A stretch of DNA of 38,936 nucleotides, taken from Planctomycetes bacterium TMED75 (GTDB lineage: Bacteria; Planctomycetota; Phycisphaerae; Phycisphaerales; SM1A02). The DNA is taken from the NCBI GenBank assembly GCA_002171655.1, contig NHEC01000034.1, positions 1-38,936 of the forward strand, read 5' to 3'. Of the stretch, positions 33,447-38,758 are shown piece after piece (the stretch's first letter is position 1; every line of letters begins with the position of its first letter). The position numbers and the translations under genes were made by a program. A model generated the notes under the pieces. The model searched no databases and was not told the DNA's origin. It was given only the letters and a program-made list of their open reading frames with translations.

Positions 33447-33499
33447 CTAAGACTAACATGTAGAGCCTTCGAGGGCAGGCGGCGCTACACTTGAGAGAC

Positions 33500-34096
33500 A
33501 TGAGCAGACCTCCCCATACATCCAGCACCACTCAGTTTCTGGAGACCATCAGGTCCAGACTTGCCATGTCGCACTCTGCAATCAAGAAGACTCAAGACCA
33601 GGCCGAATCCATTGCGCACATTGCTGAAGTCATTGCTGGAACTTTCGCCAATGATGGCCAGCTTCTCACTTGTGGAAACGGAGGCTCTGCTGCGGAAGCC
33701 CTTCATTTCTCGGAAGAGTTGATCGGGCGATTCAAACACGATCGACCACCACTTCGTTCGATTTGCCTCAATTCCGACCCAACCGTGATGACTTGCATCG
33801 CCAACGATTACGGCTACCAGGAAGTTTTCGCTCGCCAGTGCAGAGGGCTCGGAAGGACTGGAGACTCCCTGGCGGTGTTCAGCACCTCCGGCAACAGTGA
33901 GAACATCATCCTCGCACTCAAAACTGCAGCGGAACTTGAAATCAATACGATTGGGTTCCTGGGTGGCGACGGCGGCGTCGCTGCCTCGCTTTGCTCGACC
34001 CTGTTTCTGGCCCCCGGAGGTGATTCTGCCTCGATCCAGGAAAGTCATCAAGCGGCACTCCACGCCATATGCAACTGCTTTGAGCCAACACTGTAG
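33500..34096 (+). CDS. SIS-domain isomerase, GmhA/DiaA-like
   Basis: A 198-aa protein of the sedoheptulose-7-phosphate isomerase group: LLTCGNGGSAAEALHFSEEL, SLAVFSTSGNSENIILALK, and SIQESHQAALHAICN, which keeps the Gln and His that act in GmhA catalysis. GmhA makes D-glycero-D-manno-heptose 7-phosphate for LPS core synthesis; DiaA is a related DnaA-binding protein. No other heptose gene is in the window, so the pathway is inferred only. An upstream TTG at 33491 is possible; the ATG at 33500 is taken. The next gene, coding for a membrane thioredoxin-like protein, starts eight bases after the stop. Confidence 0.8.
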   Translation: MSRPPHTSSTTQFLETIRSRLAMSHSAIKKTQDQAESIAHIAEVIAGTFANDGQLLTCGNGGSAAEALHFSEELIGRFKHDRPPLRSICLNSDPTVMTCIANDYGYQEVFARQCRGLGRTGDSLAVFSTSGNSENIILALKTAAELEINTIGFLGGDGGVAASLCSTLFLAPGGDSASIQESHQAALHAICNCFEPTL

Positions 34097-34104
34097 GAAG
34101 ATCA

Positions 34105-35214
34105 ATGGCCGACCCCACCCCCACTGAATCCTCTCCAAGCCCAACTTCCTCATCCGCCAGCAGCATGATTGGCTGGATCACCTGCCGGATAGTGGTTCCA
34201 TTGTGGGTGCTGACCGGGGCCATCTTCAAACTGAATGAACTCGATTGGAAACTGCTTCCACCTCCTGTGCGATCAACTTGCGAGTGGATTGGCTCGGGGC
34301 TTGGCCAGGATCCGGACCTCTGGCTTGGCTTCAGCATGAGATTCCTCATTGGCACCGAACTGCTGCTGGTCGGTCTCATGTTCGCGAGCACCCGGCTTGC
34401 CCGCCCCCTCGCTGCAGCGGTGCTGACCTTGTTCGTTGTGATTCTCATCACCGTGCTTGCCCAAGGGTATGACAGCGCGAAGGGACTCCAGAGCCTGATC
34501 GGCGGGGACTGCGGCTGCTTTGGAAGCGCCGGTCCCCCAGCGAGCGTGATGCTGCTCATCGATGCGTGCCTCCTGGGCTGCGTCCTCTTCTTCAAGCCGC
34601 GAGCCGGGTACGGCCACGGCCCCGGATACCTGATCGGAGCCTTCATCATTTCCGCGGTGATTGGATATGCCGTGGCCTTTGCGATCCCTGAAAAGACAAT
34701 CCAGAACACGTCTCAGGGAGAGGCCAACCCGGTACAGACAGGCGCCACTCAGTCGGCAAACACACCCCAGGTTGATGAGAATGGCTGGGTGCTGCCACCC
34801 GCCACTTTGAAACCAAACTACTACCCTCGTTTTAACAATTGGTTAGGGGAAAGATTGCAAGACCAAGAAGTGGCGCAGCTGCTTCCACGACCGATTCCAC
34901 TTGATCTCGATCAGGGCGAGAAGCTTCTCGTCTTTTACCGGGGTGACTGCGACCATTGTCAGGAACTCTTCCTCACCCACTTCTCGGATCTGGAACTCCC
35001 CATCCCAACCCTTGCGATTGATGTGATGGACTACGCCCCGGAAGGTCTCCTCGAGTTCTACTGCGATGGATGTGCCACGGCGGAACTTCCATCCGGACCC
35101 AGCTATCTGATTCAAACACCCGTCGTCGTCCGGCTCAAGGACGGAGTGGTCACCTGCATCGCTGACGGTTCAGGGTCTGACGAAGACGCCGAGCAATGCA
35201 TTTACGGCCCCTAG
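34105..35214 (+). CDS. MauE/DoxX-like membrane protein with thioredoxin-like C-terminus, copy 1
   Basis: A 369-aa protein in two parts. Residues about 20-195 are a helical membrane domain of MauE/DoxX type with GGDCGCFGS (Cys136, Cys138) in a loop, as in MauE. Residues about 225-369 are soluble, probably periplasmic, with a thioredoxin-like strand and CxxC: KLLVFYRGDCDHCQELFL (Cys282, Cys285). A second CDGC (Cys320, Cys323) and the pair Cys351/Cys365 follow. The layout suggests transfer of disulfide or reducing power across the membrane. A polar linker rich in Gln, Asn and Thr separates the parts. It is in line with the SIS isomerase gene upstream and with its own paralog downstream, 27 bases on. 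Confidence 0.68.
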   Translation: MADPTPTESSPSPTSSSASSMIGWITCRIVVPLWVLTGAIFKLNELDWKLLPPPVRSTCEWIGSGLGQDPDLWLGFSMRFLIGTELLLVGLMFASTRLARPLAAAVLTLFVVILITVLAQGYDSAKGLQSLIGGDCGCFGSAGPPASVMLLIDACLLGCVLFFKPRAGYGHGPGYLIGAFIISAVIGYAVAFAIPEKTIQNTSQGEANPVQTGATQSANTPQVDENGWVLPPATLKPNYYPRFNNWLGERLQDQEVAQLLPRPIPLDLDQGEKLLVFYRGDCDHCQELFLTHFSDLELPIPTLAIDVMDYAPEGLLEFYCDGCATAELPSGPSYLIQTPVVVRLKDGVVTCIADGSGSDEDAEQCIYGP

Positions 35215-35241
35215 ACTGACTAGCCAACTGGAGATCGGGTG

Positions 35242-36180
35242 ATGTCACTTCGATTGATTGCAGGCAGGATCCTCTGCCCACTACTGCTTCTCTTTCTGGT
35301 CGTCACGCAGCTTGCCATCGGCGGCAATGCCTTACCAACCTGGTTGGCGGTGATCGCACAGAGGATGAATCAGGATCCGCTGACGTACCTGCGAATTCTG
35401 ATCATGTTGGAATCTGCCGCAGCGTTCAGCATTCTGTTCTTCACGACCAACCGTAAGTACGTGCTGAGCCAGACCGCATTGATTCTGGTGGCATTCGTAT
35501 CACTCGCCGAGTGCGCTGCGGCCGTGCGAAGTCGAGAACTTTCGGACGTCGTGATTGCGGCCATCTTCCTGGCAATCGCACTCGCACTCGAATTCATCCT
35601 GCTGAAGCCTGATCCATCCCGACAGAACCGAATCACCCGGAAGGGATCCAGAGCACCCCTCAAAGCGGTCGGTACGGTACTGATCATTCTCATGGTCGGT
35701 ATTGCGGCCAACGCATCGATTGCGCCACGAACGCTTTCGGAGGGAGCCATTGCTCAACGCGAGGTGCCCAGTGGAGGCGGTGCCCGGGCCATCGAAATGA
35801 CACCGACCAACTGGATCGGCCGTTCTATTCGGGAAACTCCAATCGCCCAATTCGTACCCGATGTGATCGACATTCTCGGCGAGGACGGCATCCTGGTGCT
35901 CTACAACCCCCGCTGCGGAACCTGCCACGATCTGTTCGAACTCTACTTCAGTGCGGAGGAGGTAGAACTCCCGATCGTGGCGTTGGAGGTCCCCCCTGCC
36001 GACAATGCCCTGTTACTCGAGAGCGAATACGCCGATCAAGTGAACTGCCCAAGCTGTGAATTCATGAAGCTCCCTGGAGGACCCATGTGGCTGGTCGGAG
36101 TTCCGTATGTGATTCGAGTCGTGGACGAGACCATCACCTGCGTGGGCAAGGATGGACCAGAAGATTGCCTTGAAGGCTGA
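35242..36180 (+). CDS. MauE-like membrane protein with thioredoxin-like C-terminus, copy 2
   Basis: A 312-aa paralog of the preceding gene. The membrane domain (ILCPLLLLFLVVTQLAIGG, then helices to about residue 160) lacks the CGCFG loop. The soluble domain has ILVLYNPRCGTCHDLFELYF with CGTC (about 225-228), CPSC (about 269-272), and Cys in ITCVGKDGPEDC, so all six Cys of copy 1 are kept in order. GGPMWLVGVPYVIRV matches GPSYLIQTPVVVRL of copy 1. The ATG at 35242 has GGAG eight bases upstream; a GTG one codon earlier is less likely. It is convergent with tilS, 17 bases away. Confidence 0.66.
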   Translation: MSLRLIAGRILCPLLLLFLVVTQLAIGGNALPTWLAVIAQRMNQDPLTYLRILIMLESAAAFSILFFTTNRKYVLSQTALILVAFVSLAECAAAVRSRELSDVVIAAIFLAIALALEFILLKPDPSRQNRITRKGSRAPLKAVGTVLIILMVGIAANASIAPRTLSEGAIAQREVPSGGGARAIEMTPTNWIGRSIRETPIAQFVPDVIDILGEDGILVLYNPRCGTCHDLFELYFSAEEVELPIVALEVPPADNALLLESEYADQVNCPSCEFMKLPGGPMWLVGVPYVIRVVDETITCVGKDGPEDCLEG

Positions 36181-36197: not shown

Positions 36198-37259
36198 TCA
36201 GTCGGCCTGGCGAATCCTGACATCATCAGACTCCACCACGAGTTGAATGCGACCTTGGGCAAACTCGAATGTTCGGCGATGCCGGAGGTGATCGCACACC
36301 GCAAATGCAGCATCACTGAGCCGAACGGAAAACGCATTCTCTTCAGTGACGCTTGAAAGCTCAGCCCCCTTAGAAGCGACCGCCCTTCGCAGTGCAGCCA
36401 CCACTACTTCGTGATCGACTTCGCGAAAGGCAGCCCGGGTCCAATGCTCTGAGTCAGGGGGGCCAAAGCGTTCGAAAATCACCTGTTCCAAGGCGGAGGC
36501 TGCGGCGAAGAGTCGATCTGCGGCGGATGATGCACGAAATGATGCTCCTGGCCAACGCTTTTCAAGCAACGGGAGCACCTGCTGCCGGAGCATGCCTCGA
36601 GCGGTGGAGGTATCCAGATTTGTGGGATCCTCGATAACTCGAAGGGAGATTCGATCGCACAATGCGCGAAGGTCGAGCTGAGAGCAAGCGAGCAGAGGTC
36701 GAATCAATCGCTTCGTCTCCAAAGGACGCGTCCACCTGGGATGCGAAAGTCCGGACACCCCGCTCCCCCGACACAACGCGAGCAGCATGGTTTCAAAACG
36801 ATCTTCGGCATGGTGCGCTGTCGCAATGTATCCGCACCGGTGCTCCTGAGCGGCAGCAGACAATGATCGATACCGTGCGATACGGGCTTGCTCCGATAGA
36901 TTCCCAGCCGTCTCCGTCAGTTCCACTTTACGGACGTCGACCTCGATACCAAGGCGGCCACATACCTCCACGGCATGACCAGCCTCCTGGGCGGATTCAA
37001 TCCGAATCCCATGATCGACATGGACTGCAACGAGGTGGCTCAGCTGCGAATCACGCCTTTCCAGGATGGCTTGGAGAAGAACCAGCAGCGCGGTCGAATC
37101 GGCTCCACCGCTAAACCCCACGACGATTCGTGAGCCGGGAGCTACACCACAGTGGGAAGTCAACGCACGCTGCAGTCTTGCGGCAAGGGGGTCACGGCGA
37201 ACCAGAAGCTTTAATTCATCAATGCCTGCGGGCTCCGTCAGCTCGCCCGAAACACTCAA
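36198..37259 (-). CDS. tilS: tRNA(Ile)-lysidine synthetase
   Basis: A 353-aa N-type ATP pyrophosphatase that converts C34 of tRNA-Ile(CAU) to lysidine, which lets it read AUA. PP-loop VVGFSGGADSTALLVLL (SGGADS, residues 50-55), then VAVHVDHGIR and YIATAHHAEDRFETMLLALC with the conserved HHxxD pattern. The C-terminal domain is short, but the overall length is acceptable for the family. Its ATG overlaps the stop of the upstream exported protein as ATGA. Confidence 0.9.
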   Translation of the reverse strand: MSVSGELTEPAGIDELKLLVRRDPLAARLQRALTSHCGVAPGSRIVVGFSGGADSTALLVLLQAILERRDSQLSHLVAVHVDHGIRIESAQEAGHAVEVCGRLGIEVDVRKVELTETAGNLSEQARIARYRSLSAAAQEHRCGYIATAHHAEDRFETMLLALCRGSGVSGLSHPRWTRPLETKRLIRPLLACSQLDLRALCDRISLRVIEDPTNLDTSTARGMLRQQVLPLLEKRWPGASFRASSAADRLFAAASALEQVIFERFGPPDSEHWTRAAFREVDHEVVVAALRRAVASKGAELSSVTEENAFSVRLSDAAFAVCDHLRHRRTFEFAQGRIQLVVESDDVRIRQAD

Positions 37260-38758
37260 GGGCGAGGGTCCTTGCGAGGCCAGATACGCACGTTGGCCAC
37301 CAGAGTCCGTGTGTCGGGAATTTCAACACCCCATTGAATCTCACTGGATTGCCACAGAAAGTTGAACAGGAGAGCAAGCCCCACTCGGAAGGGCTCCACT
37401 CGATCCTCACTGGAAAACTCATGGGCAAGCGGGATCAACGACCGAACCATCCGCGCCGCATTCTCGGCATGAATATGCCCCGCATGAGCCGCCCGAACAC
37501 ACTGAAGCGAGCTCGAAGGACTGCTCAGCGCTTTCTGGACAGACGCGGAGAGCTGTGGACATGTGGCATACAGCTGCCAGTTGGAATCTCCCTTGGCCTG
37601 ACACCAGTTGATGCTTATCTGCCGGGAAAGAGAATTACCACCAAACACCGGTTCCATCAACGCTCGTGCGTAGACCGTTCGAGGTCCGTTCTCCGGAAGA
37701 TCCGAGAGTCTGGGTAAGTGCTGAAGTCCTGCCTTAACCCCAAGTCGGTTTCTGAGTGAATTAAGGGAAGCGAGCACCGAAACATCCTGACGAAGGCTGC
37801 TGGCTCCCGGCCCATCAGCCTCAATGGCTACCGCAATTGCGGGCACAGTAGCATCTGATTCCGCACCAGCGCGCCCCAGTACGATCAGACGCCGGGTCCA
37901 GCGCTCATCGGAACGCTCGGGCTGCATCATGTGCGGCAGAAGCTTCTCTACCAGATCAAACCCGGGGAGGAACCTGGTATCTGCGTGCTCAACGATCACC
38001 GCCACGGAATCGTCTCCAAGCCGTTCCATGATCTCAACGTCCAGCTTCCGATTACAGCATGGTGGGCTGAACGTATCCTGCTCAAACCAGCCCTCATAAT
38101 TGATATCCACGGATCCATCAGTGCGTGAAACACTCACACGCGAGACCCCCGTTTCCCCATGAGAAACGCCAAGCCCATCGGCATGACGGAAGGAAACCAC
38201 CAATGGCGCGGAGCTGATTTCATCTACCAATTCAGATGAACCGGACAGGGGATCGGAAATCGAATCCAGCGCAGCCTGCTTGAGCGCGCCTGGAGGCTCC
38301 GAAGCGAGTAACAACCCCCCATTGCATTCGGAGATTGAAATGCCAGAACTCACCAACATTCGATTGACTTGAAGGATGGGACGGAGGGCTGCAATCAGCT
38401 CTCTCGATTCTTGAGGACCGGAAGACAGCCAGGCAACCCATTCAATGTCATTGGGATCATCATCGCGAACCCGAACACCGAACACTCCGCGCCGCAGAAG
38501 CTTCTGAACTACGGAGAATTGCTTGAGGCGGCCATGAAAAGTGGGAATCTCATTCTGGTGAACCCCAAGGGTGATGGCCAGTGCGAATCCCAGCGCCTGC
38601 TCATCACCAAAGAAGTCCAAAAGCTCTGATGCACCCTGGTAGGAGATGACGCAATCACAGTCTTCCACGGGAAAGGACACCGTTGACGCAAGATCGTCTG
38701 ACGTCGCAGAATCGACGGAGGCGAGAACCAGCAGGAGAATCAGACAAAGATGATGCAC
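37256..38758 (-). CDS. Exported protein of unknown function coupled to tilS
   Basis: A 500-aa protein with signal peptide (MHHLCLILLLVLASVDSATS). No domain is recognised. It opens after the signal with SFPVEDCDCVISYQGASELL and holds several hydrophobic beta-like segments (SAPLVVSFRHADGL, SVAVIVEHADTRFLPGFDLV). The general plan, a secreted protein that starts with a compact alpha/beta motif and has long stretches with few Cys, recalls the two unknown paralogs at 25.4-29.2 kb, but I cannot align them. Its stop overlaps the tilS start by four bases, an odd pairing of an envelope protein with a tRNA-modifying enzyme. Confidence 0.75.
   Translation of the reverse strand: MHHLCLILLLVLASVDSATSDDLASTVSFPVEDCDCVISYQGASELLDFFGDEQALGFALAITLGVHQNEIPTFHGRLKQFSVVQKLLRRGVFGVRVRDDDPNDIEWVAWLSSGPQESRELIAALRPILQVNRMLVSSGISISECNGGLLLASEPPGALKQAALDSISDPLSGSSELVDEISSAPLVVSFRHADGLGVSHGETGVSRVSVSRTDGSVDINYEGWFEQDTFSPPCCNRKLDVEIMERLGDDSVAVIVEHADTRFLPGFDLVEKLLPHMMQPERSDERWTRRLIVLGRAGAESDATVPAIAVAIEADGPGASSLRQDVSVLASLNSLRNRLGVKAGLQHLPRLSDLPENGPRTVYARALMEPVFGGNSLSRQISINWCQAKGDSNWQLYATCPQLSASVQKALSSPSSSLQCVRAAHAGHIHAENAARMVRSLIPLAHEFSSEDRVEPFRVGLALLFNFLWQSSEIQWGVEIPDTRTLVANVRIWPRKDPRP

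Follow-up and report, generated by a model that had tools for sequence, protein, structure and literature searches.

What do two adjacent genes do that each join a membrane domain to a cysteine-rich, thioredoxin-like domain? Both are encoded on the forward strand (+), as are the features of A, of B and of the adjacent isomerase gene given below, of contig NHEC01000034.1 from Planctomycetes bacterium TMED75 (GCA_002171655.1); its whole 38,936-nucleotide stretch was analysed and is referred to as the window. An earlier note on this DNA had read the two genes, here A and B, as paralogs with a MauE-like membrane core and had proposed that they form a two-protein electron relay.

Two paralogs and the loss of the membrane site in B

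Gene A (34105..35214) encodes 369 amino acids comprising a MauE-like membrane domain, a fifth transmembrane (TM) helix and a thioredoxin domain. The GTG start of gene B (35239..36180, 313 amino acids) lies 24 bases past the end of A. Pairwise BLASTP detected the C-terminal domain alone, and profile–profile comparison aligned the two proteins over their full length (hhalign E 1.9e-41); the paralogy proposed in the earlier note is thus certain and extends over the entire proteins.

AlphaFold2 (AF2) modelling of A, based on 62 aligned relatives (pLDDT 90.4, pTM 0.85), predicted five TM helices within residues 19-193 (34159..34683), at 19-45, 70-94, 96-121, 146-162 and 173-193. MauE (PF07291) was matched by 57/62 relatives of A (best E 3.7e-10), several of them reaching or exceeding the Pfam cut-off of 27 bits (40.6, 40.4, 37.0, 34.8, 33.5 and 27.1 bits), and the protein of the window itself scored below it (E 0.71, 10.6 bits). 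Since the PDB comparison lists for A were filled by matches to the soluble domain, the MauE-like core rests on profiles, and at this level A has a membrane core of the MauE/DoxX type, as the earlier note had suggested.

The loop between TM3 and TM4 carries a CGCFG motif (residues 136-140, 34510..34524), of which C136, G137 and C138 were found in 62/62 relatives. In the membrane part, R28, W34, K42, E85 and D153 were, like the two cysteines, unvarying in all 62, and further invariant residues were P32, G38, P52, L114, Y278, C282, H284, C285 and P339. A search pattern that included C[DE]HC supplied part of the A loci, for which reason the invariance of C282, H284 and C285 there is partly due to selection; CGC lies outside this pattern, and its invariance was therefore not produced by the search. 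The loops TM2-3 and TM4-5 contain about 2 K+R and 0 to 0.4 D+E, compared to 0.7 and 0.9, respectively, in the CGC loop. Judged from these charges, the loop with CGC probably faces the same, outer side of the membrane as the thioredoxin domain.

The model of B (pLDDT 87.3, pTM 0.65) likewise has five predicted TM helices (residues 4-158, 35248..35712), with the CGC loop deleted. Its residues 1-123 align with NACHO/TMEM35A, a DoxX-type protein (Z 7.5, 117 residues aligned, weak for a helical bundle). For the membrane part of B, Pfam gave no match of note, and none of the 32 relatives of B matched MauE at E 0.1; B is tied to MauE solely via A. The CGC motif is deleted in 30/32 of these relatives, other residues stand in place of K42, W34, G38 and D153, and only 15/32 retain E85. 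Despite the lost membrane site, the six cysteines of the thioredoxin domain are kept in 32/32. No finding speaks more strongly for a division of labour than this one-sided loss, by which B gave up the conserved membrane site and retained its thioredoxin domain. The statement of the earlier note that CGCFG was kept in the first copy and lost in the second holds, and the proposed relay is plausible.

The C-terminal domains and their three cysteine pairs

The C-terminal domains of A (residues 240-369, 34822..35211) and B (residues 186-313, 35794..36177) are predicted to adopt a thioredoxin fold of the TlpA/ResA/CcmG class. In VIA-align comparisons, the soluble domain of A matched 3gl3 (Z 9.4, 114 residues aligned, 3.4 Å), 4nmu (Z 9.4, 118 aligned, 3.6 Å) and ResA (Z 9.2), and that of B matched 4yod (Z 9.3, 111 aligned, 3.2 Å). 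Sequence profiles of known thioredoxin families gave weak matches only for both proteins. In A, a CDHC motif (residues 282-285, 34948..34959) occupies the thioredoxin active-site position, where it opens the predicted helix 283-292 after strand 272-278. In both models, as in the PDB comparison, a CxxC sits where the first helix begins, and the position of the presumed cis-proline is conserved, P339 (A) and P289 (B) being invariant in the alignment. The fold, on which the earlier note had staked its reading, is thus what structure prediction of each protein returned. Neither of the two outcomes that this note had named as contrary to it, another fold and unconserved cysteines, was observed.

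The first CxxC is universal over 133 C-terminal domains, and CxHC was present in 27/27 relatives of A retrieved by plain similarity search. In distant planctomycete families, CGCxG and CxxC are retained and the histidine of CxHC is often absent. CxHC resembles CPHC, the oxidising motif of DsbA.

Both proteins contain two more cysteine pairs, in the same order. In A, these are a second CxxC (CDGC, residues 320-323, 35062..35073), both cysteines of which occur in 108/133 C-terminal domains, and a third pair formed by C351, in a strand, and C365, in the last helix (35155..35199). In B, the CGTC of the first position (226-229) is followed by CPSC (270-273), C301 and C310. The arrangement C-x2-C ... 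C ... C and the invariance of all four extra cysteines in B would suit a single metal (zinc or Fe-S) site and a domain acting as metal sensor or carrier. The pairwise coupling of the cysteines makes this highly improbable, and the metal site was set aside: over the 133 domains, which are related sequences and not independent events, presence was coupled within the second (r 0.74) and the third pair (r 0.80) and barely across them (r -0.02 to 0.29). Moreover, pair 3 is missing from 19 domains that have pair 2, and 16 domains with pair 3 have no complete pair 2.

Since the pairs are gained and lost separately, and since both are absent in distant families, they are more likely independent disulfides, structural or tuning, that were added in part of the family. 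In one subgroup, loss of the first cysteine of pair 2 goes along with gain of a cysteine further along (r -0.43), possibly a swap of disulfide partners. All three pairs noticed earlier are thus present and ordered alike, and the extra two look like independent disulfides rather than relay steps.

Distribution, gene order and neighbouring genes

Homologs of A were detected in 34/37 genomes of the window's family and near-full-length B in 17/37; with CGC, the first CxxC and the cis-proline position invariant in A and all six cysteines invariant in B, the tandem is not a chance observation. The A family extends across Planctomycetota and includes a few members from Acidobacteriota: the named relatives are mostly Phycisphaerae/Phycisphaerales MAGs, and single A genes occur in Acidobacteria and Thermoanaerobaculia MAGs. 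B was found in none of the other families of the phylum that were sampled, where the inspected matches of the B model were A-like proteins. About half of the A carriers in the window's family have A alone, which indicates that B is dispensable for A. The B proteins group as a single clade with an SH-aLRT support of 99, in a quickly computed tree that used no more than 134 columns, and have a single origin.

At every locus where the two genes adjoin, B lies downstream of A; in one genome (G030), they are on different contigs. We distinguished loci with A alone, with A and B, with B following an A that has a doubled C-terminal domain, and with a short extra thioredoxin protein between A and B. 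A comes first in all of them. Additional thioredoxin units were gained more than once, either through a doubled domain or as a small third gene. In one lineage (L108, L118-L121), open reading frames (ORFs) of 189-241 amino acids between A and B contain the first CxxC only and no CGC. In another planctomycete family (L197:4870-6365), the gene after a MauE-thioredoxin fusion encodes a small protein that begins like a lipoprotein and has a thioredoxin domain with CEQC; this separate protein looks like an independent tandem addition.

Directly upstream of A, the window encodes a SIS-domain phosphosugar isomerase resembling GmhA/DiaA (33491..34096, start codon uncertain; PF13580, E 1.7e-25). This gene ends 8 bases before A and likely shares an operon with it; a gene of the same cluster lies directly upstream on the same strand in 23 other loci, both A-only and A+B. 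Further recurring neighbours are an M20 peptidase, TilS and a TIGR01777 oxidoreductase and, in Acidobacteria, a formiminotransferase. The window also contains a conserved ORF of 500 amino acids (37256-38758) near TilS, with a likely signal peptide, relatives in 22 loci and no Pfam match.

These neighbourhoods bear on the idea that A and B mature one dedicated exported protein encoded elsewhere, as MauE and MauD do for methylamine dehydrogenase. The MauE relationship of A speaks for it, as does the analogue MauD, a separate protein (PMC7794033). We consider it unlikely: the search for a client gene by neighbourhood yielded no recurring neighbour with conserved cysteines, the secreted proteins near A having no conserved cysteine sets, and presence in most genomes of the family fits a general function better.

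Direction of electron flow and relation to known systems

The reading that we prefer, at a probability of roughly one half, is that A acts as a membrane thiol oxidoreductase with a fused thioredoxin domain, that B is its tethered partner and that the oxidative direction is favoured. Located at the outer face of the MauE/DoxX-type helix bundle, the two CGC cysteines would trade electrons on one side with a membrane carrier, for which quinone is the probable candidate, and on the other with the CxHC site in the TlpA-class domain that A carries outside the membrane. As a duplicate minus the membrane site, B may act as a membrane-tethered thioredoxin that swaps disulfides with A and either donates them to exported proteins or accepts them from these. 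The putative path would lead from the membrane carrier via CGC and CxHC to B or a substrate, with the second and third cysteine pairs as independent disulfides outside any metal site. Together, A and B would resemble a device that works in two steps and carries electrons between the membrane and protein disulfides outside it, preferably as a supply of disulfides as in VKOR-thioredoxin fusions.

Oxidation is favoured by the CxHC motif and by the role proposed for MauE, which is to aid disulfide formation in methylamine dehydrogenase (PMC7794033). Against the preferred reading speak the frequent loss of the CxHC histidine in distant families and the search of the neighbourhoods, which revealed no client gene with conserved cysteines. 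Alternatively, A could be a reductase moving electrons outward, like DsbD/CcdA with TlpA/ResA/CcmG, and serve cytochrome c or metal-centre maturation or disulfide repair. The nearest folds belong to the reducing TlpA/ResA/CcmG class, 15 loci have a gene resembling thioredoxin reductase close to A, and the reducing DsbD/CcdA membrane domain was found in 59/61 genomes, so that such a role is possible. It is nevertheless rather unlikely in our view, as the close family has CxHC and not CxPC, the recurring neighbours included no recognised gene for cytochrome c or for metal maturation, and the literature links MauE to disulfide formation (PMC7794033).

Genome-wide co-occurrence does not decide the direction. 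Within the window's family, VKOR matches were found in 3/3 genomes without A and in 13/34 with A (p 0.07), and 16/34 A-bearing genomes have neither VKOR nor DsbB matches. This hint that A replaces VKOR/DsbB did not hold at the level of the phylum, where VKOR matches in sampled genomes were commoner in A carriers (11/24 versus 42/222 non-carriers, p 0.007; strong matches only, 7/18 versus 46/228, p 0.08). A is therefore not a simple substitute for VKOR. The VKOR matches of the window's family sit in open frames of ~600-670 amino acids (G001, G003, G004, G010, G011 and others), which suggests a large VKOR fusion protein. Neither A nor B matched the VKOR profile (Pfam), nor did anything else in genome G000.

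Among 246 sampled planctomycete genomes, many of them incomplete, a VKOR match was missing in 193 and a DsbB match in 241. For the making or handling of extracytoplasmic disulfides in most planctomycetes, the MauE-thioredoxin family is a concrete candidate, and its clear candidate active site, together with a natural partner that has no such site, identifies membrane residues worth testing. Beside DsbB and VKOR, it is conceivable, though doubtful, that this family is a third, unrelated quinone-linked disulfide generator, built on a MauE/DoxX core and divided, in one planctomycete family, between a unit with an active membrane part and a thioredoxin partner whose membrane part is dead.

The closest architectural parallel is the bacterial VKOR-thioredoxin fusion, which has a four-TM core, a fifth TM helix and a C-terminal thioredoxin-like domain, as does A, and which hands electrons to quinone (PMC4555120). 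To this plan A brings a CxC pair close to the membrane face and invariant charged residues within its helices. The core of A differs in being MauE/DoxX-like with CxC, and A/B is set apart by its second, tandem copy, in which the membrane site is dead. A shares the membrane domain of MauE (PF07291) with the MauE/MauD system, where the thioredoxin is separate and not fused; B has no membrane site, and no mau genes were recognised in the neighbourhood of A/B. The soluble domains resemble TlpA/ResA/CcmG (DsbE) in fold and in being membrane-tethered, but A/B add two cysteine pairs, have CxHC or CGxC in place of CxPC and use a MauE-type bundle as tether. In 34/62 relatives of A, part of the membrane domain matched the NCBIfam family BT_3928 (NF045576; best E 2.3e-8), the matches spanning only about positions 45-160 of the 358 of the model; in ten proteins scanned singly, the best score was 24 bits against a cut-off of 250. 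A search of a limited literature collection returned nothing on BT_3928 or on MauE/DoxX-thioredoxin fusions. Compared to these systems, A/B is a real, conserved and well-defined system, in which known parts occur in an undescribed combination and with an uncommon tandem specialisation.
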